Shown here: in pieces, positions 1,170-20,918 of the stretch
How the letters are laid out: each line of letters starts with the position of its first letter
Position numbering within the stretch: position 1 is the stretch's first letter
IMG/VR virus record: IMGVR_UViG_3300044961_000859
Location: 1-22,673 of that record
Reading direction: 5' to 3' (one strand)
DNA from: a virus
DNA: 22,673 nucleotides
The notes under the pieces: model-generated
What the model saw: only the letters and a program-made list of their open reading frames with translations
Told to the model about the DNA's origin: nothing
Databases searched by the model: none
Translations under genes and position numbers: made by a program

Positions 1170-1198
1170 CACCCCAATTAGTTAGTTGAATACCACTA
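1170..1198 (+). promoter_or_regulatory. 29-bp conserved element, copy 1 (candidate phage promoter)
   Basis: CACCCCAATTA, 8 variable A/T-rich bases, then AATACCACTA. The same element with identical spacing is found on the minus strand at 20831-20859 and 16690-16718. Here it ends 21 bp before the amidase start and points into that gene. Length, asymmetry and placement resemble single-subunit phage RNA polymerase promoters, and AATACCACTAT recalls part of the T7 promoter. No such polymerase is encoded here, so an activator site remains possible. Confidence 0.6.
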
Positions 1199-1219
1199 TC
1201 AAAAGACAAGAAATGAAAA

Positions 1220-1780
1220 ATGAGAATTGCAATTGACATAGGGCATAATGTGCCGTTTGATAAAGGCTGTCCTGGTTTAGAAGGCGGCAAAAGCGAAGAT
1301 GAACTTACGAAAGAGCTAGGAGAATATTTAATCCAGGGGCTTCGTAATCATCAGCACATAGTCTTTGATGTAACGCCGATTGAGGCGAATTCTTTGTTCA
1401 ATAGCTTGTGGCAAAGAGTGAGGGGCATAAATGAGTGCAGCCTAAATTATTTTTTGTCTCTCCATTTCAATTGCGGTGGCGGCGGCAGCGGCACCGAATT
1501 TTACTACAAAGGCGAAAGAGGGAAGCAGCTTGGTGAAAAGCTGGTGGAAAAAATTGAGCAAGTCACTGGCTTGAAAGGAAAAGTTTATAAAGGCATCAAC
1601 CACATTCTTACAAAGCATGCACATGTTGCTGGGGGTGTTTTAGAAGTTTGTTATTGTGACAACCCGGCTGACATGGCTCTTTATAACAAAGAAAAAATAA
1701 TCTACGCCATCATTGATGTGATGGATGAGCTAGCCACCATTCGCCAAACACGCAAAAAAGGAGCGCCCGCTAATGACTAA
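1220..1780 (+). CDS. N-acetylmuramoyl-L-alanine amidase (Amidase_3 family endolysin)
   Basis: Probable phage lysin that cuts the bond between N-acetylmuramic acid and the L-alanine of the peptide stem at the end of infection. The 186 residues correspond to the catalytic domain alone, without a wall-binding or SPOR domain. Visible Amidase_3 features are the N-terminal IDIGHN with zinc-ligand His9, an acidic ligand candidate at Glu26 or Glu28, His82 in SLHFN, and the catalytic-type Glu142 in VLEVCY. There is no signal peptide, so release would need a holin, and none is recognisable nearby. It is the first gene of the rightward block and follows the 29-bp element directly. An in-frame alternative start was not found at 1213, and the start at 1220 has no good Shine-Dalgarno sequence. 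The 3' end overlaps the nuclease gene by 8 nt. Confidence 0.9.
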   Translation: MRIAIDIGHNVPFDKGCPGLEGGKSEDELTKELGEYLIQGLRNHQHIVFDVTPIEANSLFNSLWQRVRGINECSLNYFLSLHFNCGGGGSGTEFYYKGERGKQLGEKLVEKIEQVTGLKGKVYKGINHILTKHAHVAGGVLEVCYCDNPADMALYNKEKIIYAIIDVMDELATIRQTRKKGAPAND

Positions 1781-2708
1781 GAACAATGATAGAGTTGTGC
1801 AAATTCTGGCTGAAGCTGCTGCCGAGGCAGATGAATCAAATAACTACAACAAAACAACTTCCCCCCACATTCGTTGTTCGAGAGCGGGGTTGCCGCTAAT
1901 GCAACAAGTAGTGGAAGATAAAATAATTAATAAGCTTCCCCACAAAGAAAATAATTTTTGGAAAGCAAAAGAAGAAGATGAATTTTCTTTGTTGAGCCCC
2001 AATCAAAGCCAAATGAAATTTGAAATGGCTATTGCCCAAGGCTATTTGTTTGAGCGTGTGGTGGCTTGGCAGTTGCAGCAAGCTTTCCCAAACGCGGAAA
2101 TTAAACACAATGTGGATTTAGAGTTTGAGGGGCTTGGCGGGCATTGTGATTTCCTTGTTGTTGATAAGGAAGAAAAACAAGCAATCGTCATCGAGTGTAA
2201 AGCGATTGGTGCTTTCTCTGAGAAAGAAGCAAGAGAAAAAGTGCTCAGTGATAACTACGGCTACTTCACACAGTTGAGTTTGTATCAAGCGGCAATTCAC
2301 AAACAATTGCCAGACTATGAAGTTAAAGGAGAGTGGCGCGTTTGGAATAAGCGCCAAGACCAAGCTCTTACTATTCCATATGAGCTTCCCCTTAGAGAAG
2401 CTCTTAAAGTGGCAAATAAAGCAATTAAAAAAGCTGAGCTGTATGAGAAAGCTTGCAGCTTGTTTGGCCAACAAAAAACAGACGAATTGGTTTCTTTTTT
2501 GTTTAATTTCTCCGAACCCTTCCCACCGAAGAAACAAACAAGGGCTTATTATTTAGGCACTTGCAGCTTCCACTTCTCCCCGTGGTGTTCTTTGTTACTA
2601 AATGAGAAAGGAGAATTTAACAAACAAGCCTCCAATAATTTGAGGCTATTGATACAGGCTGCACTTGGCGATGAGAAAGCACTCAAGAATATTTTGAAAA
2701 AAAATTAG
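1773..2708 (+). CDS. PD-(D/E)XK nuclease, RecB/Cas4-like
   Basis: Predicted phage exonuclease or recombination nuclease of 311 residues. The core reads Glu94 in GYLFE, Asp126 in GGHCDFLVV, Glu141-Cys-Lys143 in IVIECKAI, then Gln167-x3-Tyr171 in QLSLYQ. This is the RecB/Cas4 order including the family's QxxxY motif. Cys35 near the N terminus with Cys264 and Cys272 near the C terminus recalls the split Fe-S cysteines of Cas4/AddB nucleases, but I count only three well-placed cysteines, so a cluster is uncertain. AAGGAG at 1759-1764 lies 8 nt before the ATG, and the gene overlaps the amidase gene by 8 nt. It may process replication intermediates, degrade host DNA, or act with the acidic-tailed neighbour in recombination. 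There are no CRISPR genes, so it is not an adaptation Cas4. Confidence 0.85.
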   Translation: MTKNNDRVVQILAEAAAEADESNNYNKTTSPHIRCSRAGLPLMQQVVEDKIINKLPHKENNFWKAKEEDEFSLLSPNQSQMKFEMAIAQGYLFERVVAWQLQQAFPNAEIKHNVDLEFEGLGGHCDFLVVDKEEKQAIVIECKAIGAFSEKEAREKVLSDNYGYFTQLSLYQAAIHKQLPDYEVKGEWRVWNKRQDQALTIPYELPLREALKVANKAIKKAELYEKACSLFGQQKTDELVSFLFNFSEPFPPKKQTRAYYLGTCSFHFSPWCSLLLNEKGEFNKQASNNLRLLIQAALGDEKALKNILKKN

Positions 2709-2717
2709 GGTTGCCTC

Positions 2718-2746
2718 TTGACAACTTAAAAAGGGCAGGGTAAGAT
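2718..2746 (+). promoter_or_regulatory. Sigma-70-type promoter
   Basis: A consensus -35 TTGACA at 2718-2723 is followed by a 17-bp spacer and TAAGAT at 2741-2746, within the only sizeable gap of the early rightward block. It would let host RNA polymerase start transcription in front of the acidic-tailed gene without any phage factor. Confidence 0.65.
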
Positions 2747-2782
2747 AAAGCTAAAGCAAAACAAACAAAGGAATTACATCCT

Positions 2783-3400
2783 ATGAAATTCTCTCAATCG
2801 CGCAAACCCTATTCTTCTTCTTCTTCTTCTTCTGCTCGCCAATCATATGGGCGCCAAGCAGCAAAAGCGCCTAAAAAGGCAAGCAGCTGGAAGAAGATAA
2901 ATCAATTCAACATGCTCAATGCCTTAGCGGCTTTCGCTGATGGGAACCAGTTTGAAGAAGAAATGCCTTCCATGGTGAAGGTGCGGCTAATATTGCGCAA
3001 CACCAACATCAGAGATGAAGAAGGCAATGAATATAGCCAAGAAGAAGCTGCCCACCTATTAGCCCACGCTTTATTAGAAGGCAGAGGAATTAATGTTTAT
3101 TTGTTCCTTAATGAGGACGGGTCGTATGGTGGTAATGGAAGAATCAATGTGAAAGACCTAGAAGAAGAACAAGAACAAGAACAAGAGGAGGAGGAAAAAC
3201 AATATGCTAAAAATAAATTGGTTCACAAGGCTAAAGCTGACCGTAGCCGCCCTACAGGCAGCGGGCGCGGCTCTCGTAAGTCAGCAGCCGCAGCCGCCCC
3301 ACAATTTGATGATGACGACCCAGACAGCCCAATCATCATCCCCCACACAAGAGATGATGAGGAGGACGACGAAAACGACTATGTTGTCGTCGACGAATAG
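2783..3400 (+). CDS. Acidic-tailed protein of unknown function (SSB-like character)
   Basis: I do not recognise a family. The 205 residues have a Ser/Arg/Lys-rich basic N terminus (about 1-40), a compact mixed segment (about 40-125, including VKVRLILRNTNI and INVYLFLNEDG), a Glu/Gln run, an Ala-rich linker, and a strongly acidic C-terminal tail rich in Asp from about 174 on. A flexible acidic tail is typical of phage single-stranded DNA-binding proteins such as T7 gp2.5 and of bacterial SSB, where it recruits partners. The position right after an exonuclease gene fits a ssDNA-binding or annealing partner, but no OB-fold signature can be asserted by eye. AAAGGA at 2767-2772 precedes the ATG, and a sigma-70-type promoter lies upstream. 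Codon-level repeats (TCTTCTTCT, GAAGAACAA) mark the low-complexity parts. Confidence 0.75.
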   Translation: MKFSQSRKPYSSSSSSSARQSYGRQAAKAPKKASSWKKINQFNMLNALAAFADGNQFEEEMPSMVKVRLILRNTNIRDEEGNEYSQEEAAHLLAHALLEGRGINVYLFLNEDGSYGGNGRINVKDLEEEQEQEQEEEEKQYAKNKLVHKAKADRSRPTGSGRGSRKSAAAAAPQFDDDDPDSPIIIPHTRDDEEDDENDYVVVDE

Positions 3401-3665
3401 TGGAGTGAATAGTGGGGGGAAGAATGGCGTGAAAGTGGTGGCGCAAGGTCCTATAGAGCAATTGCCTCTTCCTTATGAGCTGCCTTCAAATTGGAATTGG
3501 CCATCTCCCACTCCTTCCCTTCCTTGTCGAAGGGAAGCTAACAACAAAAATCCAAATTGTGGAAAGAAATTTATCCACGAAATGCCAGAGAATGAAAGAA
3601 TTCGCATTCGAGTGCCAGTCGGCACTACAGTGTATCAAGTAAACAATTTAGGAGAAAGACAATGA
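3381..3665 (+). CDS. Small hypothetical protein with two cysteines
   Basis: A 94-residue product of unknown function, read in another frame from the end of the preceding gene and overlapping it by 20 nt. It has a Ser/Gly/Asn-rich start, the segment LPYELPSNWNWP, a Cys pair in PCRREANNKNPNCGKKF, and a well-structured-looking tail (IRIRVPVGTTVYQV). Start choice is open. The ATG at 3381 is used here; the GTG at 3405, just after the upstream stop, is an alternative. A longer extension back to 3204 is unlikely because it would be translated inside the preceding gene. The stop overlaps the next start as ATGA, which points to translational coupling and supports the frame being real. Confidence 0.55.
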   Translation: MLSSTNSGVNSGGKNGVKVVAQGPIEQLPLPYELPSNWNWPSPTPSLPCRREANNKNPNCGKKFIHEMPENERIRIRVPVGTTVYQVNNLGERQ

Positions 3666-4216
3666 GCATCAATGCTCTAGTTCTTCTTGGTTTTTCAGGG
3701 GCTGGCAAAGACACAATTGCCAGTCACTTTCCTAATTCTTCAAATATTAAGTTTTCGGCTCTCACCAAGAACCTTGCGGCGAGAGTTTTTGGCGTGGAAG
3801 CTGACAAAATGGAAGACAAAGAATGGAGAAACACTTGTTCTTTGTCTCTCAATGGAGAGCAAATTTCCTTATCTGCCTTTGATTTGTTGTCTGCTCTCTA
3901 TCATGGTGCGCCTTCCACTAGGTTGGCGCAAGCCAACATTGAGTGGGCGATGAAGCAAGCCAAAGCTTCCACTTTCCCGATTTTCACAGACGTGAGGAGA
4001 GTTTTAGAAATGAAAGCGGTGGTGGAGGCTTTCACTCCACTAGTTGTTTTGCTTTCGCGGCCTGGTGCAACACCAACAGCAAACGACAAAGAAATAATGA
4101 AAGCGTTTGAGTGGTGTTGCAAACAACCAATAATAGCAGCGAGAATTGAAAATTCGTTCTCTGTGGAACAAACCACAGAACAAATTAAAGCACTAATTCA
4201 AACCCTAAACAACTAA
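3662..4216 (+). CDS. Deoxynucleoside monophosphate kinase-like P-loop protein
   Basis: Predicted to phosphorylate (d)NMPs to diphosphates for phage DNA synthesis. The 184 residues begin with a Walker A loop, GFSGAGKDT at 10-18, with Lys16 as the phosphate-binding lysine. FTDVRRVLE at about 108-116 resembles the DVR segment of T4 gp1-type dNMP kinases. No separate lid domain is obvious. AGGAGA at 3650-3655 precedes the ATG, and the gene overlaps the upstream stop by 4 nt. Its neighbours, a MazG-like pyrophosphohydrolase and a ferritin-like oxidoreductase, suggest a small nucleotide-handling cassette. Adenylate kinase or gluconate kinase-like activity cannot be excluded by eye. Confidence 0.75.
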   Translation: MSINALVLLGFSGAGKDTIASHFPNSSNIKFSALTKNLAARVFGVEADKMEDKEWRNTCSLSLNGEQISLSAFDLLSALYHGAPSTRLAQANIEWAMKQAKASTFPIFTDVRRVLEMKAVVEAFTPLVVLLSRPGATPTANDKEIMKAFEWCCKQPIIAARIENSFSVEQTTEQIKALIQTLNN

Positions 4217-4224
4217 CCACGACT

Positions 4225-4788
4225 ATGGACCTATCCACCTACACGAATTCCCTTCTTGTTTTAAACAGAAGCCGCCTCAGCGGTTTCACAGACTGCGCCC
4301 ACTTTGCCCACATGCTTTTTGGGCTCACAGAAGAACTACTAGAACTGCAACAAAAAACAGAAAAACTACCAGCCTCCGACCCTTCTATTTTGTTGGAGCT
4401 TGGTGACATACTTGCCTACACCACGCTTAGTGTGGCGGCACTCCGCTTTGATTTCATGACGCCCTTTCCTGAACTTGTGGCGGAAGTGGCTTCCATTTTA
4501 GGTTTGTTTTTAGATGAGGGTGTGAGTTTGGCACAACCACACAACTTATCGGAGCTCGCGCTTGAAGTGGCGGGGAAAAGCAAGCGCTGGTTTCGAGAAA
4601 GTGCTCGCCTTCAATTAAGCGATGTTGTGTTGCCTTTTGTGGGAGCAGTGCAGCATGTGTCTTATTTGCGGCAAAGTGCCGCACTTCCACCAGTGAGTGT
4701 GGAAGAAATTGCACAACAAAACATTGAAAAGCTCACAAACAGAGCTAGCAGAAATAATTTGTTTCAAGGACAAGGAGACAACCGATGA
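4225..4788 (+). CDS. MazG-like nucleoside triphosphate pyrophosphohydrolase
   Basis: All-alpha NTP pyrophosphatase of 187 residues that would hydrolyse (d)NTPs to monophosphates and pyrophosphate. Phage relatives are thought to adjust the nucleotide pool or clean out modified or non-canonical nucleotides. The magnesium-binding pattern is visible as Glu36-Glu37-x2-Glu40 (TEELLEL), then Glu58-x2-Asp61 (LLELGDILAY), with the family's usual spacing between the halves. Only one such module is present, whereas bacterial MazG has two. No clear Shine-Dalgarno sequence precedes the ATG, which lies 8 bp after the kinase stop. The end overlaps the next gene by 4 nt (ATGA). Cyanophages often carry mazG, in keeping with the cyanobacterial host proposed here. 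Confidence 0.75.
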   Translation: MDLSTYTNSLLVLNRSRLSGFTDCAHFAHMLFGLTEELLELQQKTEKLPASDPSILLELGDILAYTTLSVAALRFDFMTPFPELVAEVASILGLFLDEGVSLAQPHNLSELALEVAGKSKRWFRESARLQLSDVVLPFVGAVQHVSYLRQSAALPPVSVEEIAQQNIEKLTNRASRNNLFQGQGDNR

Positions 4789-5531
4789 AATTACCACCAA
4801 CAGTAAGCGCCCAACTTTCTTTGTTTCAAGCCAAGCGCCGCATGCCTGATTGGCAACCAAAGCCATCCGCGGCTCCTTCCCCTGCCCCCATTGAGGAAAA
4901 GTGGAAGCACGTGCTTTGGCGCTGCTTAGACTTTGTCGACCTCGAAATGCAAGTAAAAGAGTGGGTGGTTGCTTGTTCAAACAAAGAACTTAAAGCAAAT
5001 GAAGATGAAGCGGCTGCCATAAAAGAAAATTTATTGCGCAACAGCCGCGACGAAGAAAAGCACGATGAAGTGCTTAGGTATTTGTGCGCCTACTACAACC
5101 ACCCATCTCCTTCTCCACAAGCCCTGGCGCTCATAAATAGGTGGAAGAAATTAGAAGACCATCCCATTGCTGCAGCTTATGGGCTGGAGTGTGGTGTGTT
5201 CTTCACAATTCTTCCTTTATTGATTAAACAAGGAGATGTGTACGCAGCCACTGTAGGGCAGTGGATAAATGATGATGAGCGGGTACACGTGGAAACAAAC
5301 CTAGCACTTATGAAGCACCTAGGCTTAAAACTAACTAAGCCTTTGCTTCAGCTCATTTTTGACACAAACCATTTTTTGTTTGAGCCTCTAGGTAAAGAAG
5401 AGGCTATTCATCAAGCTGAGCGTGCTGTGAAGCGCACAATTTCAGGCAAAGACCCACTCATGTTGGAAGAAAGCCTCCCCACAACGTTGGCTTTCTTTGA
5501 GCAGCACAACAAACTTGCCATTACTTACTAA
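4785..5531 (+). CDS. Ferritin-like di-iron carboxylate protein
   Basis: Four-helix-bundle protein of 248 residues with a full set of di-iron ligands in ferritin-superfamily order: Glu54 (DLEMQV), Glu90-x2-His93 (DEEKH), Glu135 (YGLEC) and Glu165-x2-His168 (DERVH). Such sites activate O2 in ribonucleotide reductase R2, MiaE, rubrerythrin and aldehyde-deformylating oxygenase. It is shorter than R2 (usually 320 or more), and I see no tyrosine at the R2 radical position four residues after the first ExxH histidine (residue 97 is Leu). No R1 gene is present, so a standard RNR is unlikely. The N terminus (1-37) is Pro/Ala-rich and probably flexible. AAGGAG at 4772-4777 lies 7 nt before the ATG, which overlaps the MazG stop. 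Substrate unknown; nucleotide or tRNA modification and peroxide defence are possible. Confidence 0.75.
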   Translation: MKLPPTVSAQLSLFQAKRRMPDWQPKPSAAPSPAPIEEKWKHVLWRCLDFVDLEMQVKEWVVACSNKELKANEDEAAAIKENLLRNSRDEEKHDEVLRYLCAYYNHPSPSPQALALINRWKKLEDHPIAAAYGLECGVFFTILPLLIKQGDVYAATVGQWINDDERVHVETNLALMKHLGLKLTKPLLQLIFDTNHFLFEPLGKEEAIHQAERAVKRTISGKDPLMLEESLPTTLAFFEQHNKLAITY

Positions 5532-5538
5532 CTTATTC

Positions 5539-5553
5539 TGCAAACGAAGTTTG
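5539..5553. other. Small intergenic hairpin
   Basis: GCAAAC-GAA-GTTTGC lies in the gap between the ferritin-like gene and the next small gene. It has no following T-tract, so it is more likely a processing or stability element than a terminator. Confidence 0.4.
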
Positions 5554-5575
5554 CTGATTAATTAAAGGAATTTTT

Positions 5576-5812
5576 ATGACACACAGCAACCAAAACAACA
5601 ACGAAGACAAAGAAAACGACCTTCTTGCTTGGGCTGAACAAATCATGCGCGAAGTTGAGGAGGAGACAAAAGACTTAACAGACGAACAGGTCACGGACGA
5701 CATGTTGCCGCCCAACATTAGCCCTGACCCGAACGTTGATATTTTCTTGTTTGGCTTTAGTGACGATGATGATTCAGGTTCTTCTAGCAAAGGCAGAGGC
5801 TCTGGTAGATAG
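5576..5812 (+). CDS. Small acidic protein, unknown function
   Basis: A 78-residue, strongly acidic protein with many Asp, Glu and Asn residues, one short predicted helix (LLAWAEQIMREVEEETKDL) and a Ser/Gly/Arg tail. No family is recognised. AAAGGAA at 5564-5570 sits 5 nt before the ATG. It lacks membrane segments, so it is not a holin. Its charge would suit a DNA mimic or an inhibitor of a host DNA-binding protein, as with several small early phage proteins, but this is only an analogy. A terminator hairpin follows at 5836. Confidence 0.6.
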   Translation: MTHSNQNNNEDKENDLLAWAEQIMREVEEETKDLTDEQVTDDMLPPNISPDPNVDIFLFGFSDDDDSGSSSKGRGSGR

Positions 5813-5835
5813 GGAAATTTAGTTGGCTTTTGCTT

Positions 5836-5857
5836 GCCCCTCCTTAGGGGCGTTTTC
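5836..5857 (+). terminator. Rho-independent terminator
   Basis: GCCCCT-CCTT-AGGGGC (5836-5851) followed by GTTTTC. It lies 24 bp after the small acidic gene and before the ribbon-helix-helix gene, so the latter would be read through or expressed at a lower level. Confidence 0.65.
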
Positions 5858-5890
5858 TTCTAACAAAGAAAAAAGGAGGAAAATCAAATT

Positions 5891-6055
5891 GTGGCGCATC
5901 CACTAAAAAAACAGCCCCCTGGTTATATTGGGTGCTTTTGCGAATTAGACTTTAAAAAAAGAGTTGAGAGGGCTAGCGCAGATTTATTTAGGGGGCACCA
6001 ATCCCGATTTATTCGCTTTGTAATTGAAGATTGGCTCAAGAAAAACAACTACTAA
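5891..6055 (+). CDS. Ribbon-helix-helix DNA-binding protein (Arc/CopG-like)
   Basis: A 54-residue protein starting at GTG, with a strong AAGGAGG at 5873-5879 placed 11 nt upstream. Residues 12-19 (YIGCFCEL) form the expected beta strand, followed by a first helix (FKKRVERASADLF) and a second helix with the family's S-x-F-I-R pattern (HQSRFIRFVIEDWLKK). This is the usual ribbon-helix-helix build of dimeric repressors such as Arc and CopG, which bind operators with the paired strands. It is the last rightward gene, between two terminators, a typical place for an autonomous regulator. Its target is not known. The 29-bp element is asymmetric, so it is not an obvious ribbon-helix-helix operator. 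Confidence 0.75.
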   Translation: MAHPLKKQPPGYIGCFCELDFKKRVERASADLFRGHQSRFIRFVIEDWLKKNNY

Positions 6056-6061
6056 ATAAAA

Positions 6062-6090
6062 GCCCCAGCTAATGCGGCTGGGGCCTTTTT
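6062..6090. terminator. Bidirectional terminator between convergent gene blocks
   Basis: GCCCCAGC (6062-6069) and GCTGGGGC (6077-6084) form a perfect 8-bp GC-rich stem. T-rich sequence follows on the plus strand (CTTTTTATTTTG) and A-rich sequence precedes it (AAATAAAA), which reads as a T-tract on the minus strand. It separates the rightward genes from the leftward tail-fibre gene and can stop both. Confidence 0.85.
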
Positions 6091-6110
6091 ATTTTGTTTT
6101 TGTTTTTTGT

Positions 6111-7385
6111 TTATGAAATTCTAGTGAATATAGCTTGTTCAATGAGGTGAGCTTGGTCGCCCATGCGATAAATGGTTTGTCCAGCCGCACCCCCACTCAC
6201 TTTTATTCTAATCTGTACTTGTTGTCCCTGATTAAGTTGCAACATACGACCTCCATTTGTGTTGCAAAAGCCAGTAGAAAATCGGTTGCGCGCTAATTCT
6301 AGATTTAGCCCGGGAAATACCAATTCACACTCCACATTTAGAGGGGCTGGTCCCCCTACGTGAATTGGGAAAGCATAGGCATAAATCCACCACCAGCCTG
6401 TTTCTGGACAAGTAAAAGTGAAGGTAGATGTGTTGTAGCAATTGTTTCTGTTTATAGGAGCACTATCTAGAGGCAATATTATTTCTTGATTATCAAAAAA
6501 TTGATAAGCCCCACCTGCACGAGTTGCAAAACACCAAACATTGCTGTAAATGGCATTTTGCACAAAAGCTGTGGAGGCAGCATTTGTGGAAGAATTACGA
6601 GCATTTGAAATAGTTGGCACCGTAATAGAAGAAGAAAAGGAAGCTGTGTTGGAAAAAGAAGAAGCCCCTGTGAATGAAGATGAGCCAGCTAAAGTGGTGG
6701 TGCCAGATAAAGTGGTGGCGCCAGCAAAAGTATTGTTTCCTGTGAATGTGTTGGAGCCATTAAGTATTTCTTGTTTTTTACTTTCTGCAAATGCCGTGGA
6801 AGCAGCTTTAGTGGAATTGTCGTTGTTTGGAGTTGAAGGCACTAATAAAGAAGAGGAGCCTGAAAAATTGTAGGAGCCAGTGAAAGTATTAGAGCCAGTG
6901 AGGAGCTGATTAAAGCGGGCATAAACAGAGTTGCGGCTGGGAGCAGAAAGAGTGTCGGAGTTCCAAGATGGTCCGTAAGGCTCGTCAATAACTGTTGTTG
7001 GTGCTAAATTCACTCCGTTGGCTTCAAGCTGCTGCAGCACAAAAAACAAAAGAGAATAAAGTTCTTCGGTGCGTAAGCGAAGGCGAGACAGCCCATTAGT
7101 TAGTGCCGCTGCAGTGGAGAGAGAAAGAAAAGTGGTGTCAGAAGGGAGTAAAGGAGTGAGGCGCTGCACTTGCACTATGGTGCCTAACTGCACATTAGGT
7201 CCGGTATAAGAAATGGCGTTGGTGTTGGTTTTTGTGTAGAGGGAAGTTTTATTCACACCATCGTGCAAAACTAAAAAGTCAGTTTCGTTGAGGTTGGGAG
7301 AAAGTTGAAGCGGCGTCACATTAATGGTGAAGGAAGTGCCGCTTAAGTTGTTGAGGCGCAAAACGGAAGTGGAAAAATTAACCAT
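6111..7385 (-). CDS. Tail fibre protein, T7 gp17-like N terminus
   Basis: Receptor-binding fibre of 424 residues. Residues 1-80 resemble the virion-anchoring N-terminal domain of T7-type fibres (YTGPN...GTIVQVQRLTP). A helical segment follows at 95-122. Residues 163-250 are short repeats of the NTFTG / TTLSG / SSFTG type, as in fibrous shaft regions, with two copies of a linker containing AASTAF (about 195-200 and 269-274) that is common in phage fibres. The C-terminal part (about 285-424) looks like a C1q/TNF-type beta sandwich (FTCPETGWWWIYAYA) and would contact the cell surface. It is the last gene of the leftward block and ends 27 bp before the bidirectional terminator. AAAGGAA precedes its ATG. 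Confidence 0.85.
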   Translation of the reverse strand: MVNFSTSVLRLNNLSGTSFTINVTPLQLSPNLNETDFLVLHDGVNKTSLYTKTNTNAISYTGPNVQLGTIVQVQRLTPLLPSDTTFLSLSTAAALTNGLSRLRLRTEELYSLLFFVLQQLEANGVNLAPTTVIDEPYGPSWNSDTLSAPSRNSVYARFNQLLTGSNTFTGSYNFSGSSSLLVPSTPNNDNSTKAASTAFAESKKQEILNGSNTFTGNNTFAGATTLSGTTTLAGSSSFTGASSFSNTASFSSSITVPTISNARNSSTNAASTAFVQNAIYSNVWCFATRAGGAYQFFDNQEIILPLDSAPINRNNCYNTSTFTFTCPETGWWWIYAYAFPIHVGGPAPLNVECELVFPGLNLELARNRFSTGFCNTNGGRMLQLNQGQQVQIRIKVSGGAAGQTIYRMGDQAHLIEQAIFTRIS

Positions 7386-7420
7386 GAGACAATTCCTTTA
7401 TTTTTTCCTTTATTCTTTGT

Positions 7421-10561: not shown

Positions 10562-13500
10562 GGTGAATTGCTCCTATTTGGTATGTCGGAAAGTTGCTCT
10601 TTCATGGAAGTAGATGGCTCTGGCGCTGGCTCAGGCGACTTTGTTCTTTTTTTGGTTTTGGCTTTTGGCTTGGAAGGAGGGGGAGGTGAAGGCTTGGGAG
10701 GCAAAACAACAGAGTCTTGAGAAGCTTCTGGAAATAAATTGCGTTCAATGATTTCGTCAACAATGGGCTTTAGCCTTTCGTCTAAAGTGGCTTCCATTTG
10801 ATTGAGAATTTTAGCTGCACTATCACGAAGATTGGCATCTACAGTGAGGCGCTCTGGATAAAATTTAGCGGCATAGGCATCGGTGTTGTAGCGAGCTGCC
10901 ACAGCTTCAATGGCAGATGGGAGTGTAGAAAGTGGCTTGCTTTTCTCCACCTTCATTTTTGTGGAATCGAGAGCCATTACAAATCCCGATTTTTTGTCAT
11001 ATACACTATCAAATCCCAGATTTCTTAGGTTTTCAGATATGGTGTCGTTAATTTCTTTTAAAAAGCTTTCACTAGAGTCGAAGCCACTTCGTATAATGTT
11101 CGATTCTAGTTTTGTAAGAATGGTGTTGTAAGTGGTGGTTTTGTTTCTTCTAATAGATTTGAGAGTGGTTTGCTTTAGCTCTTGTGGAATGTTTTCTAAA
11201 AGCTGCTCCACAATAGGAGAAGTGGTGGGTATTTTGGCTCTTGCATTGAGCGTGGCTTCAAATGAATGGGAAAGTTCGTAAATGGAAGGCTTGAGTGGCT
11301 TGGCTTCAGAAAGAGATGATGCGTTTTCGCTTACAAGTGCTTTTGCATACATTTCTACGGTGCGCGGCTTTTCTATTAAATAAAGCCCACTTCCTAATTC
11401 TCCTCTTGTCCCGTAGAGGCGCAAGTTGTAAGAGGGGCTCCAATCCGCTATTGCTGTTCCGTGGTAGAGCTTGGTTGGGAGGGTGGTCACAAACTGTTTG
11501 GCTTCTGGTTTCAACAAAGAAGAAGAAGAAGTTACAGTTTCAATTATGTTGTTATTTAGCCGCACCAAAGAAGAAGCAAACTCAGGAAGAGATTTTCTTT
11601 GTTGTTGAAGGAGAAAAGAAAGAGTGTCGTAATTCACCTCACTCACCGCTTCTCTAATTGCTGGCGGAAGCTGATTTAAAACTTGCTTTGGTAAATTTAA
11701 TCGAGCCTCATTATTAATGGCTCTCATAATTGCAGAAGAATCTAAAGGAGAGTAGGGAAGTGCTAAAGGGTCGTAGCGGCGCCCAAAGTCATAAGAAGTG
11801 GAGAAAAGCTCATCTAGTTGCATGAGCTGGCTTCTAATGATGGCTTTATGAGCTGCAATTTGCTCAGCAGCTTCTAACAAATTAGAAGTGGGGGCGGCTT
11901 TAATTCCTCCTGGCACATCATCAATTCCTCTCAAAAACAAAGAACTTCCAATTTCTATGGGAGTGTCGCTCGCTCTTCCCACCCCTATACGCAGCGCCAA
12001 TCCTCCTGGAGTGGAGGCTTCTATCCCTTCGGTGGTTTTTGTTATGGGAGGCAAAGCACTTTGCACCACTTCTATGTCGTTGGTTGGCACTCGCACCACC
12101 TTAGTTGGTGGTAGTTCATTTTGTTCTAACCACGCCTCCATTTGAATGGGAGGAAGCTTTTCTTCAACTTCCGTGGGGGAAGCTTTTGTAATAGAAGAGG
12201 AGTTGGTGCCTTCTGTAAGTTGTTTTGGTGGAGGGGCGCCTTGCAAAGCAGTTTGTTCTAATCTAGCCTCCATCTGAATGGGAGGAATTTTTTGTTCAAT
12301 TCCTGTGGGGGAAGTTTTTGTAATAGAAGACGATGGAGGCAACAACTCCACTTTTACATTGCTTTGTCCTGGTTGTTGTTTTCCTGGAGGTAAAGCAAAA
12401 CTTCCCTCTGCATTTCCTTGCAACAAGTTTTGTTCAAGCCAAGCCCTCATGGTAAGCGGAGGCTCTTTTGGCACCCCCACGTCTGGCACACCAGGGCTTT
12501 TAGGAGCAGACAAAGAAGAAGAAGGAGAAGGAGGAGAAGAAGGAGGAGTCCATTCAGCCTCTCCCACTGGTGGGTATTTGGGAGGAGGAGGAGAAGCTCC
12601 ACTTGATATTTTACTTCCTTGTTGGGCTGCTTCGGACAAAGAGCGGCGCCCAAGCTTGCGCAGCGCACTCCTCAAAATGTCGCCCACAACATTATCAACT
12701 GGGTTGAAAAGCTGAGTCCCAACTTCAATGGCTGTGCCTAGTGGGTCTGATTTTGCCACTGCCATGATGTCATTTACCAGCTGCTGAAATGGGTTGGAGC
12801 TTGGCGCTCCCTTCACATTTGCAGGGCGGCGAGGACTATAAAAGATGCCTTTGTTTTTCCCTTTAGGGTCGTTGGTGTCTGCAATTTGCCCGCCTCGCAA
12901 AGCCTCCCTAATTAGGTTTTGGTTTTTGGCTTTCTCTGTGTCGTAGCCCAAAAGTCTGCTAAACCTGTATTTTTCGGGAAGCAATATGGTGATGCCCTCT
13001 CGTATGAGCTCATCATACTTCTCTCTCTTCGCCCCCAAATTTTCAAGCCAATCCCCTATTTTTTTGTCTTTTTCTGCACTGGCTGCAAACGTTAAGTTGA
13101 GAGGAAGGCCGAGCAAATAATTCAAACCACCTAGCACACCAGCCCCTGCTTGCCCAAATTCTCCTTTTAAAGGATTGAAGTTGCTTTCTTTTTGTTGTTG
13201 GGCAGAGCCAAACAAAATGTCCAACCATGGATTGGAGCTGTGTTCAGAGGGAGAAGAATGCCATTGTTTGTCTGCTCTCGGCACATTTAAGAGGCGGGAG
13301 CGGTCGCCTAAAATTTGCTCTGTTTTCTCTATTGCTTGTTGTTGTGATTGATAGCGTCTTCCTGCTGTGGAATTAAGAGCAGCAATTCCTTGCTTGATGA
13401 GGTCGGCTGTGGATTGCGGATTGAGTGTGTCGTAGATGTGAGGCTTTTTTGTAGCAATAATTTCGGGCGCATATAAATTGGAGTCTTGCGTGTAGTCTTG

Positions 13501-13950: not shown

Positions 13951-13964
13951 CCCCAATCACCTCC

Positions 13965-14210
13965 TCACAAAATTAATGCAGAAGAAGGAAGAAAAGAAGA
14001 GGCAAGCTCATTTAAATAGAGTTTTCTTGCCACAACATAGAGGCGATAAACTTCTTTGAGAAGCTCAATTGCTTGTTCTCGGCTTAAATTGGAAGCTTGA
14101 TTAGCAAAAGCTGCAATTGCAAATTCTTCTTCTAACGACAAGAAAGAAGGTGGGGAAGATGGTGGGAGAGAAGGCGAGGGGAAAGAAGAGTTAGTGGATT
14201 GGTTGTTCAT
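13965..14210 (-). CDS. nblA: NblA-like phycobilisome degradation protein
   Basis: An 81-residue protein whose residues 24-72 follow the NblA pattern: LSLEEEFAIAAFANQ, a short turn with NLSREQA, then a long second helix ELLKEVYRLYVVARKLYLNEL. Cyanobacterial NblA has the same LSLEQQF...FA.Q...MS.DQA...L..LY...VVRE..Y.ELL arrangement. NblA binds phycobiliproteins and hands phycobilisomes to a Clp protease. Phage copies are known in viruses of Microcystis, Planktothrix and filamentous cyanobacteria, where they are thought to feed amino acids to virus production or prevent photodamage. Unusual here are a 23-residue Ser/Pro-rich N-terminal extension and the location inside the virion operon. Its ATG overlaps the adaptor stop by 4 nt (ATGA), and the large virion gene follows 14 bp after it. 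Confidence 0.8.
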   Translation of the reverse strand: MNNQSTNSSFPSPSLPPSSPPSFLSLEEEFAIAAFANQASNLSREQAIELLKEVYRLYVVARKLYLNELASSFLPSSALIL

Positions 14211-14791: not shown

Positions 14792-14808
14792 GGGCTTTCA
14801 TCCTTTAA

Positions 14809-15948
14809 TTACGGAGTAGGTATGGTGCCGTTGGTGTGAATTAGCACAGCATTTGTGTGGCGGTAGTCTTTACAACCAAACAACGTAGAAGTGACCATTG
14901 CGTCGCTGAGATAGAGAGTCTCGCGGCTCATCTCAGTTTTGGGCTCTTGCAACATGGCTAATCCAAATGCTTCTTGGTGCATCATGATTGCTGTGTGCAC
15001 TTCCTCTTGAGCATTAGCTGCCACGCCTGTACCATCAGTGGACCACCTAGTTGGTAAAGAAGCAGGAGCAGTTGGACCCCCGTATTGAGTGGGAAAATAC
15101 AATTTCACGCCAGTACCATCCGCTCCTGGGTCAGCAGCAAGCTTCACGCCAGGTGTGTTAACTGTGGTGCCTCCGTTTGGAAAGGCATTTGCTCTGTTTG
15201 CATCAATCATGGACGTCATGTAGACAGGGACGCCCATGAGAGTTCCAACCACACCGCTCTCTAAAGGAGCGCTAGTGCGATAAAACATGGATTGCACTTT
15301 ATCAAGTGCAAGCAACTGTGCAAACTGAGTTGGAGAAACAATCAAAACGCGCTTGTCTGCTGATACATCATTTTTGTCTAAAATGAGCTTAGCCTTTAAG
15401 AAAGCGTCTAGGGTGAAAGGCCTACTATTGTTTGCCGCACCCATAGCACCAGTAGTGTGGCTATACACAACTTGTTCATTATAAGCTTGAATGCAAGCAC
15501 GTAAGCCAAGCAAATGCGCATCTAAGTCTCTTGCAATTGCATAGGAAGCTTCTTTAGCCAGATTGCTCGACAATAAACCACTGGGGTCCAGCATGATTGA
15601 AGTGATATCTTCAACCATGAAGGAAGCTTCTTTAAATTTGTCTATCAGTATGCGCCAATAGTTAGTGCTTGCGCTTTGTAAATTTACAGGCTCACCTGGT
15701 CTTTTGTCATTCACGCCTAGGCGACCAAGTGTGGGGATGGTAATGGTGTCGCCAACTTTGCCTTGTGGAAAAGCAACGTTCATAGTGAATTGGCGCATGA
15801 GCAAGTTTTGGTCTAGCTCGCGCCGGACCATAGTAGCCCATTGTTTCTTAATCCACTCTTGTACGTCAGCTCTTGTGAAAACACTGCCTTTATAAGTGGC
15901 TTGTAAGTTGAGAGAGGAGTTGTTTGCGTTAGTAAAATTTGCTGGCAT
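14809..15948 (-). CDS. Major capsid protein
   Basis: Shell protein of 379 residues, expected to have the HK97 fold. It follows the scaffold gene, as in nearly all tailed phages. Segments seen in coat proteins of this kind include VGDTITIPTLGRLGV, the helix-strand run RILIDKFKEASFMVEDI, DKRVLIVSPTQFAQLL and GTLMGVPVYMTSMI. The length is typical of podoviral coat proteins. There is no recognisable Shine-Dalgarno sequence, only a 75-bp A/T-rich leader with the AACAAAGAA word, which is notable for what should be the most translated gene. No decoration-protein gene is seen. Confidence 0.85.
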   Translation of the reverse strand: MPANFTNANNSSLNLQATYKGSVFTRADVQEWIKKQWATMVRRELDQNLLMRQFTMNVAFPQGKVGDTITIPTLGRLGVNDKRPGEPVNLQSASTNYWRILIDKFKEASFMVEDITSIMLDPSGLLSSNLAKEASYAIARDLDAHLLGLRACIQAYNEQVVYSHTTGAMGAANNSRPFTLDAFLKAKLILDKNDVSADKRVLIVSPTQFAQLLALDKVQSMFYRTSAPLESGVVGTLMGVPVYMTSMIDANRANAFPNGGTTVNTPGVKLAADPGADGTGVKLYFPTQYGGPTAPASLPTRWSTDGTGVAANAQEEVHTAIMMHQEAFGLAMLQEPKTEMSRETLYLSDAMVTSTLFGCKDYRHTNAVLIHTNGTIPTP

Positions 15949-16023
15949 ATGGTTTAATTAGAAAAAAAGAACAAAAAATGAAAACAAAGGAAAACAAAGA
16001 ATGAACGAACATAATGCTCATGC

Positions 16024-16680
16024 TCACACATCATCAACCACGCGTCCTTCTTGGAAGGCTTTTGTAATGCGAGGTAAGTTAGCTTGATATGTGGCTTTGT
16101 CCATTCTCAAAATTTCAGATTTTTTAATAATGTCGAGTTTTGGTTTTTGTGAAGGTTTTGTGCGAGAAAAAGCAGAAGGTGTGGGTTTGTTAGCTGTTGT
16201 GGGTTTGGCTTGCCCTGTTTTTATTAAGTGGTCCCAAATAGCAATGGCGCCTTCCACAGAATTAAATTGCTCTCGCCCTTCTTCTGGGAGGGTTTGATAG
16301 AAGCTCTTAATTGCTTCCATGCGCTGGTCATATTCTACAGGGCTCACGCTCCATGAGCGCATGAGAGTCATTTCGTCTCTAAAAGCAACCAGCTGATTCA
16401 CCGTTTCTAAGGCTTCATTTGGCTTAACTCCAAAATAATTTTCAAAAGCCTGAACAAAAGAATCAGGAGTTTCTTCTTGCTCTTGTTCTTCTGGAGCTTC
16501 TATTTGCTCTTGTTCTTCTTGTTCTTCTTCTTGTTGTGGTTGTTGAGCAGGAGAAGCAATTGGATTTGGTCTAACTTCAGCTTTTATTGTTGGTGTTTGG
16601 AAAGCTTTCAGTTGCTCATTTAGCTGTTCGCTAATGGCATTTGCAGAAGCTTCCGTTGTCTGGTTGTTTAAATCAATCAT
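16024..16680 (-). CDS. Capsid assembly scaffolding protein
   Basis: A 218-residue protein between portal and capsid, the standard place for the scaffold. The N-terminal half is low-complexity and very acidic (Gln/Glu-rich, about 45-75). The middle is helical, and the C-terminal segment is basic and helical (KLDIIKKSEILRMDKATYQ), like the coat-binding end of P22 and T7 scaffolds. A copy of the 29-bp element ends 9 bp before its ATG, which suggests that scaffold and capsid have their own promoter for high expression. No protease domain is seen, so the scaffold is probably released intact. Confidence 0.8.
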   Translation of the reverse strand: MIDLNNQTTEASANAISEQLNEQLKAFQTPTIKAEVRPNPIASPAQQPQQEEEQEEQEQIEAPEEQEQEETPDSFVQAFENYFGVKPNEALETVNQLVAFRDEMTLMRSWSVSPVEYDQRMEAIKSFYQTLPEEGREQFNSVEGAIAIWDHLIKTGQAKPTTANKPTPSAFSRTKPSQKPKLDIIKKSEILRMDKATYQANLPRITKAFQEGRVVDDV

Positions 16681-16689
16681 GGTCTTTGA

Positions 16690-16718
16690 TAGTGGTATTC
16701 AAATAATTAATTGGGGTG
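16690..16718 (-). promoter_or_regulatory. 29-bp conserved element, copy 3 (candidate phage promoter)
   Basis: Reading leftward: CACCCCAATTA, 8 bases, AATACCACTA, in the 44-bp gap between the portal stop and the scaffold start. The sequence after it (TCAAAGAC) is also shared with copy 1. Only 9 bp separate it from the scaffold ATG, so if it is a promoter the mRNA leader would be very short. Confidence 0.6.
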
Positions 16719-16724
16719 AAAAAG

Positions 16725-18503
16725 CTATAGAGGAGTGGATAGTGCTTGTTGTAGAAGAGCCGCTTCTTCATCAGGAATGGGTTGTTCTGAAGGTGGCATT
16801 CCTCCCAAAGCCATAAAAGCTTCAGGCACTCCACCAGCCGCTGTTTTTTCTTGGAGGGCTTGAGAATAAGAAGGGCCGCCAATTGCCATCAGTTGTTGAT
16901 TGAGTGCGTCTAAAGGAGATAAAGAAGGAGAAGCCAAGCTAGCTTCAGCTGGTGCCGCTTGTGTGGCTTCTGCAGATTCGTCTGGCTTCACCACATATTT
17001 TTCTGGGTCATCAAACCCAAAAGAAACAAGAAGGTCATAAAAGAGGGCTTTCCAATCCAACAAAGAAGCAAATTGCGGCACACTGCCTGTGAGCGTGATG
17101 AAGTCAGTGAGGAGCTTAATTTTGTGGTCGCGATTGATTAAGCTTTGTGTGGCTGTTACGCGCACTTTAAAAGACTTCCTTAAGTCTGAAGGAAGTAGTT
17201 TGAAGTAGTTGCTAATGCCTGGTTTGGAGCCCTTCAATTTAATAGTTTTTTGTTTGGTAGTGTGGGCTCTCACTATTTTGTAGGCGCGTTGCAACAAAGG
17301 AATTATGAAAGTTTTTTCATATAAAGAAAACACATCAGTGAGGCGGTTGCCGCCGGCTTCCTTCACACTTTGTATTTCTTGTGCTGTCACGCGCTCGCCA
17401 GTGCGGAATGTGTTGGCACTAATCATGGCACCCGTCCCTATGTTGCGGTCAATTTTTGCATCTAGCACAGCAGCTTCATTGTAAGTAATGTTGAAGTTGT
17501 TGGCTGGCGGGCGCAGAGGAGTGAGGGCATCTGGTCGCCCCACACTAATCACTTTACCGGGCTCTGTTTTTATTTGGTTGGGGTCAGTGATGCCGTCGTC
17601 TATGAACAACCACATGTTGTCTACCGACACAGCTATATTGTCTAGTCGCCGGTTCATTAGAATGTTGTTTTCTAAAATGAGCCCCAAGCTGCTATCAATG
17701 AGAGAAATGCCATAGGCGGATTCTGGTGTTTCAAACAATATACCAATCAACCAAGGGCACTCACTTAGTCCTTCCTCTTCATGAAGCACTATGTTGTCAC
17801 TAATCCTATAAAGGCACCCGTCTATTGGGTCGTAAAATTCACAAACCTCCACAAACTCATTAGCTAAAGGAGAAGGAAGGTCGTCGGCTAATTCTCTGCT
17901 TGAAGGACTTGTTGTGGAGAGTTTTTCAAATGCAGATTCAGCATCTTCTGAAAGTTGGTTAAAAAAGCCAGAGTTTGCCCATTCCAAAAACTCTGCCTTA
18001 TTCAACAAGAATTCTCTAAAACTGTAGGAAAATTTAGGATTGTAGCGGCGCCCACTCTCTATGTAAGTGTGGGAGGCATTGAGGCACTCGAAGGCAAGCT
18101 TGTCTTCTTCTTCATCCCAAAAAACTCTCATGGCACAAAAGCCAGTGAGAAGCAACTGAGTGGTGGCAACTCGGAGTTCTCGAAACAAATTGGAAGCATT
18201 TAGGCAATTGCGAAAATAAGCAGAGGCTAAGGGCACAATTTCGGCAAGCCCCGGCTCACTGCTTTCCAATTCCACCCAATAGTCTGAATGAAATAAAGCA
18301 TTGCGAAAGTAGGCTCCCACTGTTTCAATGATTTCAAAAATGCGCCCATCATTTAGTTTTGAGTGCCATCCCTCATTGTTATGCACTCGTAAAGGGTTGG
18401 TTTTGTAGAGGCGCCAAAGCTCTTCCCACTTTGCATTTAGTGGGGTGCGAGCTTGTCTTTCTGTTTCTATTAGAGAATGGAGAAGGTCATTTTGCAAATT
18501 CAT
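16725..18503 (-). CDS. Portal (head-tail connector) protein
   Basis: A 592-residue protein between the terminase and the scaffold, matching T7-type connectors in size and place. Twelve copies would form the ring through which DNA is packaged. Visible features are an N-terminal helical part (ETERQARTPLNAKWEELWRLYK), a central region with the wing-type segment VSVDNMWLFIDDGITD and GKVISVGRPDALTPL, and the stem-helix region RTGERVTAQEIQSVKEAGG. The C-terminal roughly 90 residues are Ala/Pro-rich and probably disordered. The TerL stop lies 6 bp before its ATG. Confidence 0.85.
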   Translation of the reverse strand: MNLQNDLLHSLIETERQARTPLNAKWEELWRLYKTNPLRVHNNEGWHSKLNDGRIFEIIETVGAYFRNALFHSDYWVELESSEPGLAEIVPLASAYFRNCLNASNLFRELRVATTQLLLTGFCAMRVFWDEEEDKLAFECLNASHTYIESGRRYNPKFSYSFREFLLNKAEFLEWANSGFFNQLSEDAESAFEKLSTTSPSSRELADDLPSPLANEFVEVCEFYDPIDGCLYRISDNIVLHEEEGLSECPWLIGILFETPESAYGISLIDSSLGLILENNILMNRRLDNIAVSVDNMWLFIDDGITDPNQIKTEPGKVISVGRPDALTPLRPPANNFNITYNEAAVLDAKIDRNIGTGAMISANTFRTGERVTAQEIQSVKEAGGNRLTDVFSLYEKTFIIPLLQRAYKIVRAHTTKQKTIKLKGSKPGISNYFKLLPSDLRKSFKVRVTATQSLINRDHKIKLLTDFITLTGSVPQFASLLDWKALFYDLLVSFGFDDPEKYVVKPDESAEATQAAPAEASLASPSLSPLDALNQQLMAIGGPSYSQALQEKTAAGGVPEAFMALGGMPPSEQPIPDEEAALLQQALSTPL

Positions 18504-18509
18504 AGTTAG

Positions 18510-20348
18510 TTAGTTAAAAAATGAATTGTAGGTGGCTAAAAAGGAAGGCTGATTAAATAAATCTAGAGGAAGTTTTGTTGCTACCACATTTGCATTTGTT
18601 TGAGAAACAAAGAAACTATAATCAATGGACTCTCTGGAATTGTGTGCTTTTTCCCACAATGTGACTACTGCGTCTAAGAAGTCGTCGTGCTTAGTCACAG
18701 GATAGTTTGATATTTGGTGCCAAATATCTTCGTTTGCCCTCACTTTTTCGCTAAAACACAATTTGCCGCTTGCTATGGGCAGCTCTAACACTCCTTGTAT
18801 TTTGCTGTCTTTCACTCGCTGCTCATAGTGACCAAGAGCCACTAATGGGCGCCCATTTACAAAAGCTTTCTCGTTTTTTAACACATCTCCTAGTAGCATG
18901 CCCACACCATTTTGTTCATAAAAAACTCTGAAAGTGTGGAGAGCAATTGCCATTTTTTGTGTGGCTTCTACCACTTCATTTGTGGTGAGGCGCCCCATCA
19001 CGGCGTCTTGCACCACCAATGTGCCATCGCTCAGCTTAAATCCCCCCACGATTGCACAATAATCACTAGTGCGGGATGTGGAGAAAGCTGGGTCAATTGC
19101 AATTATTGGATGCACTTTCTCAAGTCTCGAACTGTTGGGCCACTTAAAATAGCAATTATTTGCGTAGGTGAAGAAACAAGAAGAATCAACTACTTGAATT
19201 TGGGCAGTGTCGAAAAGCGCTGTGTCTTTCTCAAACACTTTGTTCAGATATTGGGAAGCAAATCTTCGCGGAGGTAGGCGCTTTTGCAAATTCGCCACAA
19301 TCTCATCATTATACCGCTCAGGCCACAAATAGCCTTCGCTTGCATCTTGTCCATTTTTGTAAATGGAACGCTGTAAAACTGTGTAGTGCCACTCATCTGC
19401 ATTGGCTATTATTTGACCATAATAGTCGTCCACAGCATAACGAGTGCCGCTAACTAGTATTTCTCCTCCTACTGTGTCTGAAAACAAGAAAGAAGAATTG
19501 CCTAGTTCTACCACTTTGGGTGGGTTTAACACACTCTCTATGTCTGCAATCCACCCTTCTATTTGTGCTTTCTTAGCTGGGCTCTCAATGTTTTTAAAGT
19601 CTATTAAATCATCCAATATGGCTAAGTCGTAGTGCATCCCAGTTACAGTGGTGCCAACTGATGTGGCAAACACTGTGGGTTCTTTAAAAGAACCAGGTCT
19701 ATTAACTTGAAGAGCTGTGGCGTTCCAAATAACTTTCTTGTCTTCAGCTTCGGTTTCAAAATTGCTATTGCGAGTGCGGTTGCGTTTGTCTAATGCTGGT
19801 AACAAAGAACCTTCAATGTGGGGGCGATTGTTCCACACTTTCTCTAGTTCTTTGTTTTCTAAATAAGAGCGAAGTTCTCTTATGAAAGACAAAGCCAACG
19901 TTTGCAAATTACAAGCCACCAATATGCGAATGTTGGGATTTCGGTATATGCGCCACAAAGAATAAAGCACAGTCCCTATTGTAGACTTTAGGTGGCCCCG
20001 CGGCATGAGCACAAGCCGCCGTAACCCTGCCCCTTTTTCTTCTCCACTAAACTTAAGTTTTTGTAAAGCTTGTTCGTTTGTTTGTGGTGTTGTTATAAAG
20101 TTGACCAGCTCATCGTGGCACACGCCAAAATTATCCCAACCACCATGAAACTTTATCAAATCTGCAAATGCCCTCATGTCTGTGAGAGCCCTTATTTCTA
20201 ATTCTGTGTGCTCACCATGCGCCCCAACTTTGGTGCGTTTGGCTCGTAGGCGGGTTTCTTTATCTGGTTTGTCTTCTTTTATCAGCTTAGTGCTTGACTT
20301 ACTTGCAATCAAGCTATCTAAGTCTATGTTTTTTTTAACTACCCTCAC
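18510..20348 (-). CDS. Terminase large subunit
   Basis: DNA-packaging motor and nuclease of 612 residues. The ATPase half has Walker A MPRGHLKST (115-123, Lys121), Walker B DLAILDD (241-247) with the catalytic acidic pair, and the coupling motif SGT at 300-302. The RNase H-like nuclease half shows Asp419 (IIAIDP), Glu478 (YEQNG) and the Asp555/Asp556/Asp559 cluster (HDDFLDA). The form is closest to T7 gp19-type large subunits. It starts at GTG, with the start overlapping the previous stop as GTGA. A T7-type packaging strategy would predict direct terminal repeats, yet the visible repeats in this window are inverted. Confidence 0.93.
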   Translation of the reverse strand: MRVVKKNIDLDSLIASKSSTKLIKEDKPDKETRLRAKRTKVGAHGEHTELEIRALTDMRAFADLIKFHGGWDNFGVCHDELVNFITTPQTNEQALQKLKFSGEEKGAGLRRLVLMPRGHLKSTIGTVLYSLWRIYRNPNIRILVACNLQTLALSFIRELRSYLENKELEKVWNNRPHIEGSLLPALDKRNRTRNSNFETEAEDKKVIWNATALQVNRPGSFKEPTVFATSVGTTVTGMHYDLAILDDLIDFKNIESPAKKAQIEGWIADIESVLNPPKVVELGNSSFLFSDTVGGEILVSGTRYAVDDYYGQIIANADEWHYTVLQRSIYKNGQDASEGYLWPERYNDEIVANLQKRLPPRRFASQYLNKVFEKDTALFDTAQIQVVDSSCFFTYANNCYFKWPNSSRLEKVHPIIAIDPAFSTSRTSDYCAIVGGFKLSDGTLVVQDAVMGRLTTNEVVEATQKMAIALHTFRVFYEQNGVGMLLGDVLKNEKAFVNGRPLVALGHYEQRVKDSKIQGVLELPIASGKLCFSEKVRANEDIWHQISNYPVTKHDDFLDAVVTLWEKAHNSRESIDYSFFVSQTNANVVATKLPLDLFNQPSFLATYNSFFN

Positions 20349-20779
20349 ACTATCAATCCTCTTTTTCTTCTTGTTCTTTCCGCAAATTTTTGTCTAGCTA
20401 ATGCTGTAGCAGACAACAAAGAATTCATTAGGTTGTTTGACATGGATTCATTTTGCTGCTGCTTACTCATTTGGTCCAATAGGGCGTCTTTCTCACTTAA
20501 TGCAGTGGAGTAGGATTGGCGCATTTCTGTGAGCTGTTGCAAATACTCTTGCAGCTTTTGCTGGTAGTTGTTTCGCTCTTCCTCAGTTTGTTGCAATTGG
20601 TTGCTTATTAGCCCCATTGCTTCTTCATTTCTTCTATTTAAGTCTGCAATGGTTTGTGCCGATTGTTGCTTTATTTGCTCCAACGCAGATTGTGCTTCAG
20701 CCCCAATTCCTTGTGCTTGCTGCATTGTTTGAAGCTGATACTTCTCAACTTTAGTTGGTTTTGGCTTTCTCTTTCCCAT
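20345..20779 (-). CDS. Small coiled-coil protein upstream of terminase
   Basis: A 144-residue protein with a Lys/Arg-rich N terminus (MGKRKPKPTKVEK), a long Gln/Glu-rich coiled coil (about 25-115) and a basic end (FAERTRRKRGLIV). Position suggests the terminase small subunit. The basic start and the R-rich, I/V-terminated tail instead recall the small T7 gp7.3-type virion protein. No helix-turn-helix is evident, so I leave the choice open. The ATG at 20779 is preferred: a frame extending to 20890 would run through the 29-bp element and has a hydrophobic, F-rich, unconserved-looking start. It is the first gene of the leftward block. Confidence 0.7.
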   Translation of the reverse strand: MGKRKPKPTKVEKYQLQTMQQAQGIGAEAQSALEQIKQQSAQTIADLNRRNEEAMGLISNQLQQTEEERNNYQQKLQEYLQQLTEMRQSYSTALSEKDALLDQMSKQQQNESMSNNLMNSLLSATALARQKFAERTRRKRGLIV

Positions 20780-20830
20780 GGTTCTTTTAAAACAAAAAAT
20801 AAATAATGAGGTGCGCAGCTCTCCTGCGCC

Positions 20831-20859
20831 TAGTGGTATTTGCTTATATAATTGGGGTG
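20831..20859 (-). promoter_or_regulatory. 29-bp conserved element, copy 2 (candidate phage promoter)
   Basis: Reading leftward: CACCCCAATTA, TATAAGCA, AATACCACTA. It stands 51 bp before the first leftward gene and mirrors copy 1 at the other end of the gene set. A short hairpin, GCGCAG-GAGAG-CTGCGC, follows in the leader and could be an mRNA 5' stabiliser. Confidence 0.6.
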
Positions 20860-20918
20860 GAAAGAAAAAGAAATTAGTTTGCCGCTCCATCTAATAAGTT
20901 TTTCTTATATGCTTTCTA

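Follow-up and report, generated by a model that had tools for sequence, protein, structure and literature searches.

A conserved, promoter-like two-box element before lysis, packaging and capsid genes in a putative clade of short-tailed cyanophages

Gene content and unit layout of the phage fragment

The DNA analysed here (the window) spans an IMG/VR record in full, 22,673 bp. It represents part of the genome of a short-tailed cyanophage related to the Saffermanviridae. Two of three transcription units lie within it. The rightward unit, U2, encodes an endolysin, a Cas4-type exonuclease, p205, a dNMP kinase, MazG-like and RNR beta-like proteins, p78 and a protein of 54 aa. Meanwhile, the leftward unit, U3, encodes the small-terminase-like protein, terminase, portal, scaffold, capsid, tail tube, NblA and large virion proteins. 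The third unit is known from longer relatives (G004, 30 kb; G006, 43 kb; G008, 38 kb), in which it runs leftward for about 14 kb and carries genes for the RNR large subunit, p266, primase/helicase, DNA polymerase and virion proteins. The breaks of the contig seem to fall in the long noncoding, repeat-rich stretches that flank this missing replication unit. The main features of the window are as follows.

1220..1780, plus strand: endolysin, an N-acetylmuramoyl-L-alanine amidase (Amidase_3), first gene of U2
2783..3400, plus strand: p205, acidic-tailed, a possible single-stranded DNA-binding protein (SSB match weak, E = 0.038; G004 and G008 have orthologs)
5891..6055, plus strand: 54-aa protein, ribbon-helix-helix-like (74% identical ortholog in G004)
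6062..6084, plus strand: intrinsic terminator GCCCCAGC...GCTGGGGC-CTTTTTATTT, ending U2 where it converges with U3
13965-14210, minus strand: NblA, within the structural cluster
14809..15948, minus strand: major capsid protein
16024..16680, minus strand: head scaffolding protein, behind element copy 2 (see below)
16725..18503, minus strand: portal (head-tail adaptor)
18510..20348, minus strand: terminase large subunit
20345..20779, minus strand: small-terminase-like gene, first gene of U3, its function assigned from its position before the terminase

A family search with the small-terminase-like protein gave no significant match. The terminase is 38-41% identical to those of Saffermanviridae members (Pf-WMP3, A-4L, TR020 and LPP-2) and of CHP58, and together with NblA this supports a cyanobacterial host. 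These phages share the gene order terminase-portal-scaffold-capsid with the window. Nevertheless, Saffermanviridae genomes are organised in two arms, whereas the clade of the window has three units, with the lysin and nucleotide genes forming a separate rightward one. This distance and the different layout suggest a sister group to the Saffermanviridae. NblA, which is involved in phycobilisome degradation, is also encoded by eight relatives (G001, G002, G003, G007, G008, G009, G010 and G011).

At the contig ends (341-1078 and 21149-21941) there are long imperfect inverted repeats, the best arms of which (645-866 and 21364-21585) are 97% identical. In relatives, similar inverted repeats flank the replication unit on both sides, so that inversion of this unit by recombination is conceivable. 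A tandem array with a 14-bp unit close to CCTAAGCACATTTG occupies noncoding DNA near the right contig end (22396-22605), and two 85-bp direct repeats, 85% identical, lie within the gene of a virion protein of 1135 aa (12117-12333). Searches of the window for Rfam families and tRNAs gave no match.

Copies of the element and their conservation in relatives

A 29-bp element, CACCCCAATTA-N8-AATACCACTA, occurs exactly three times in the window, with no mismatch at its 21 fixed positions. It is listed here with the features that surround it.

1170..1198, plus strand: element copy 1, CACCCCAATTA-GTTAGTTG-AATACCACTA, exact match; a counterpart lies ahead of the orthologous gene in G004, at 25275
16690..16718, minus strand: element copy 2, CACCCCAATTA-ATTATTTG-AATACCACTA, exact match
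20831..20859, minus strand: element copy 3, CACCCCAATTA-TATAAGCA-AATACCACTA, exact match; same site occupied in G001, G002, G003, G004 and G005
19..48, minus strand: possible degenerate fourth copy, CACCACTATTA-N9-GATACTGCCA, weak (19/21 degenerate positions in a loose scan)
20813..20829, minus strand: hairpin GCGCAG-n5-CTGCGC, lying in the predicted 5' leader immediately behind copy 3
20894..20908, minus strand: inverted repeat ATAAG-AAAAA-CTTAT, upstream of copy 3 (leader comparison)

The first-pass annotation of this DNA had placed the three copies correctly in coordinates and strand, and had found all 21 fixed positions identical. It had also called chance recurrence negligible, which agrees with an expectation of 0 from 100 dinucleotide shuffles. 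Many further copies inside genes, which it had named as evidence against a promoter, were not found: the window holds no other copy at up to 3 mismatches. Its description of the copies as standing at operon starts holds for two of them. Copy 1 lies 21 nt upstream of the endolysin ATG and opens U2, and copy 3 lies 51 nt upstream of the small-terminase-like ATG (20779) and opens U3. Copy 2, 9 nt upstream of the scaffold ATG in the short gap after the portal stop, is instead internal to a co-directional leftward cluster.

An ORF listed at 20345-20890 spans copy 3 solely through an upstream ATG. In relatives, the small-terminase-like protein begins at a conserved MGKRKPK/MGTRKRK, indicating that the real start is at 20779 and that copy 3 is outside the gene. 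The mis-called start concealed one element copy from a de novo gapped-word search upstream of genes, which was thus uninformative for the window itself. The possible fourth copy faces the left contig end and the missing replication unit beyond it; it is weak because another 19/21 match of the loose scan falls within a gene. The hairpin after copy 3 has an identical stem with another loop in G002 and is kept in G001 and partly in G003, and its folding energy is not exceptional. An inverted repeat similar to that at 20894..20908 is found upstream in relatives, the clade of G008-type phages having it as TATAAGTTTTTCTTATA.

The pattern search of relatives that had been proposed as a check found the element in corresponding positions, ahead of the lysin, small-terminase-like and scaffold genes. 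It is present in the small-terminase leader of G001 (1 mismatch), G002, G003, G004 and G005, in the scaffold leader of G001, G002, G003, G005 and G007, and in the U2 leader of G004, which has an extra copy before gp350, an internal virion gene. The copies point into genes and are kept in place, in agreement with the earlier description of a promoter-like sequence directed into genes. The first box also varies in a concerted way: the window (G000 in the clade comparisons), G001 and G007 have CACCCC in all six of their copies, whereas G002-G005, each with more than one site, have YACCAC throughout. Identical parallel changes at two or more separate sites point to a shared trans-acting factor, in line with the earlier suggestion of a trans factor located elsewhere.

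In the more distant phages G008, G009, G010 and G013, the scaffold and small-terminase genes are still preceded by an ACCAC box. At the scaffold gene of G008-type phages the first box is clear and the second is loose (AACCAC-N18-GCACKA), and the two-box form was not apparent in G011 or G006. A search for the exact element gave no match in IMG/VR or among 84,980 prokaryote genomes. With a degenerate pattern, the IMG/VR matches outside the clade fell within ORFs and were taken as chance. In G008, three small genes (L029:379-2092) have a common repeated upstream sequence of their own.

Geometry, leaders and the putative trans factor

Written as hexamers, the element is CACCMC-N15..18-CCACYA, a layout like that of -35 and -10 boxes. 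The copies in the window have the boxes CACCCC and CCACTA around a variable 8-bp spacer, and in relatives the distance between boxes differs by 2-3 bp. In 9 of the 11 scaffold leaders scored, 8-11 nt separate the end of box 2 from the ATG. Any promoter there must initiate within this gap, which would put box 2 at the -10/start-site position. At other sites the distance to the ATG reaches about 104 nt, in G001, where an insertion of about 50 nt separates element and gene. A distance this variable is easier to reconcile with a promoter than with a ribosome site.

The element is real, conserved and promoter-like. Our preferred reading, to which we give a probability of about 0.6, is that it is a phage-specific late promoter used by the host RNA polymerase with a specificity factor other than ordinary SigA. 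Such a factor would be either encoded by the phage, as an activator or sigma-like protein, or recruited from the host. With 15-18 bp between them, box 1 (CACCMC) would fall near -35 and box 2 (ACCACYA) at the -10/start-site position, and transcripts would begin some 4-8 nt downstream of box 2, making the scaffold-capsid transcript nearly leaderless. We infer the promoter role, start sites and trans factor from these comparisons, and the late timing from gene content. A repeated phage-specific sequence upstream of late genes, which characterises late promoters at which a phage factor directs the host polymerase, is present.

Could the element act in the mRNA leader instead, taking over from the Shine-Dalgarno sequence or being bound by a translation regulator of the phage, and in this way have the packaging, capsid and lysis genes translated together? 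A Shine-Dalgarno sequence precedes 20 of the 33 other genes of the window and G004 and none of the seven element-fronted ones (p = 0.004, a value that is indicative only, given the assignment of starts by eye and the relatedness of the two phages). Absence of the sequence from all seven also fits such a role, besides the short leaders expected from a promoter. The position of box 2 within 8-11 nt of the scaffold ATG across the clade also favours it, as does the related phage A-4L, where a different leader motif, CACTAACACACA, occurs in many copies 19-66 nt before ATG codons. On the other hand, a distance to the ATG ranging from 8 to about 104 nt, with the insertion in G001, is awkward for a leader signal, and the near-constant distance between the two boxes, with a variable AT-rich sequence in between, is more suggestive of a site in DNA. 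Hence, we consider a role in RNA unlikely.

The window has a single strong TTGACA/TATAAT-like intergenic match:

2718..2746, plus strand: sigma70 promoter TTGACA-17-TAAGAT, before p205

In G004 and G008, strong sigma70-type promoters (TTGACA-17-TAAAGT and TTGACA-17-TAGATT) precede the replication unit. None of the three element copies is among the sigma70-like sites of the window, none has a strong sigma70 match nearby, and neither box resembles a bacterial -10. The picture drawn from these sequences is one of host-type promoters for early genes and of the element for lysis, packaging and capsid genes. Early replication genes, plus p205 inside U2, would be transcribed from ordinary sigma70 promoters, and the element would then turn on the second group.

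The same data bear on an operator or activator site, in which two direct ACCMC half-sites about 19-21 bp apart would be bound by a phage protein, such as the ribbon-helix-helix-like one of 54 aa, modulating promoters too weak to see. The direct repeat of ACCMC within the boxes agrees with this, and so does the occurrence of the 54-aa protein in the window and G004, whereas it was not found in G008 or G006. A palindrome of G008, ACCACATATGTGGT, 43 nt before its replication unit, also speaks in favour. However, the scaffold gene leaves no space for a separate promoter downstream of box 2, no strong sigma70 match accompanies any copy, and the assignment of the protein rests on a sequence pattern and a low-confidence model, with no family or fold match. 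We regard an operator as improbable.

A specificity factor for the proposed late promoter is not obvious in the window. Models of sigma70 regions 2 and 4 detected nothing above cut-off in the window or any relative; a weak sigma-region-4 match within a virion protein of 1046 aa was taken as chance. The 54-aa protein is a weak candidate, with the pattern of a ribbon-helix-helix DNA-binding protein and a predicted two-helix hairpin. It is present in both element-bearing genomes that cover its region (G000 and G004). With its SSB-like hint, p205 may be considered as an alternative candidate co-activator. Another weak candidate is p266, a conserved early protein of the replication unit, whose AlphaFold model is all-helical and of low confidence (pLDDT 57) and had no fold match at E <= 0.001.

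Two further explanations are much less likely. The element might serve replication, packaging or recombination rather than transcription, given that each end of the contig has a copy close to its long inverted-repeat region. Against this, the scaffold copy stands well away from the termini, every copy is directed into a gene, and the extra copy of G004 precedes an internal virion gene, which makes such a role very improbable. The first-pass annotation had offered a promoter for a phage-type RNA polymerase or one dependent on an activator, and had observed correctly that no RNA polymerase is encoded here. A T7-type single-subunit enzyme supplied from a helper phage or missing sequence would account for a strictly conserved, multi-copy element with CACTA in box 2. 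Yet this is now largely refuted and scarcely credible, because PF00940 (single-subunit RNAP; phage T7 as positive control, E = 1e-109) was absent from the window, from four longer relatives that carry the missing replication region and from A-4L, TR020, Pf-WMP3 and CHP58, because the polymerase is reported to be lacking in this phage group (PMC6129581, PMC9410186), and because a box spacing that varies by 2-3 bp is unusual for a contiguous T7-type promoter. The activator-dependent alternative, or a promoter of alternative specificity, fits better.

Significance and comparison with known systems

T7-like phages owe their late switch to an RNA polymerase that cyanophages of this group do not have, and the timing of late genes in this group appears unsettled in the literature consulted. 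A conserved element, together with sigma70 promoters before the replication genes, offers a testable handle on this switch and a bait for the factor behind it. We tentatively raise the further possibility that an uncultured cyanophage clade uses an undescribed promoter class (CACCMC-N15-18-CCACYA), at which the host RNA polymerase is guided by a phage specificity factor of a new type, with no relation to known sigma factors or activators, and which yields a nearly leaderless capsid mRNA.

The Saffermanviridae and CHP58 resemble the window in having no phage RNA polymerase and an assumed dependence on that of the host. Nonetheless, the same scan did not find the two-box element in A-4L, TR020, Pf-WMP3 or CHP58, save for single loose matches in TR020 and Pf-WMP3. 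The Anabaena phage A-4L (L035) has about 15 copies of CACTAACACACA(CAC) at 19-66 nt before start codons on both arms (e.g., 1247, 2304, 7190 and 14033 on the plus strand; 34843 and 39843 on the minus strand), with no conserved upstream partner. By its position, this motif looks like a leader or translation-initiation element.

T7-type promoters are multi-copy and directional like the element and share CACTA with its box 2; this string is present in T7, T3 and SP6 promoters. They are contiguous and of fixed length, whereas the element is bipartite, of variable spacing and accompanied by no polymerase gene. If our model holds, the closer parallels are the late and middle promoters of T4-type phages (gp55, MotA) and other phage-specific promoters read with a phage factor, such as the sigma factor of phiEco32, which likewise combine the host core polymerase with a phage-specific sequence, and late or structural genes with sigma70 early promoters. 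These systems use a phage factor, whereas no sigma homolog was detected in the clade of the window, and neither the T4 late box nor the MotA box is known to be related to the consensus of the element.

The Microcystis phage Ma-LMM01 is, as proposed here, a freshwater cyanophage dependent on the host RNA polymerase. Its late promoters are similar to SigA sites, and a phage-specific motif was not found (PMC5780444), indicating that such a motif is not a given in cyanophages that rely on the host polymerase. In contrast, the element described here is phage-specific and not SigA-like.
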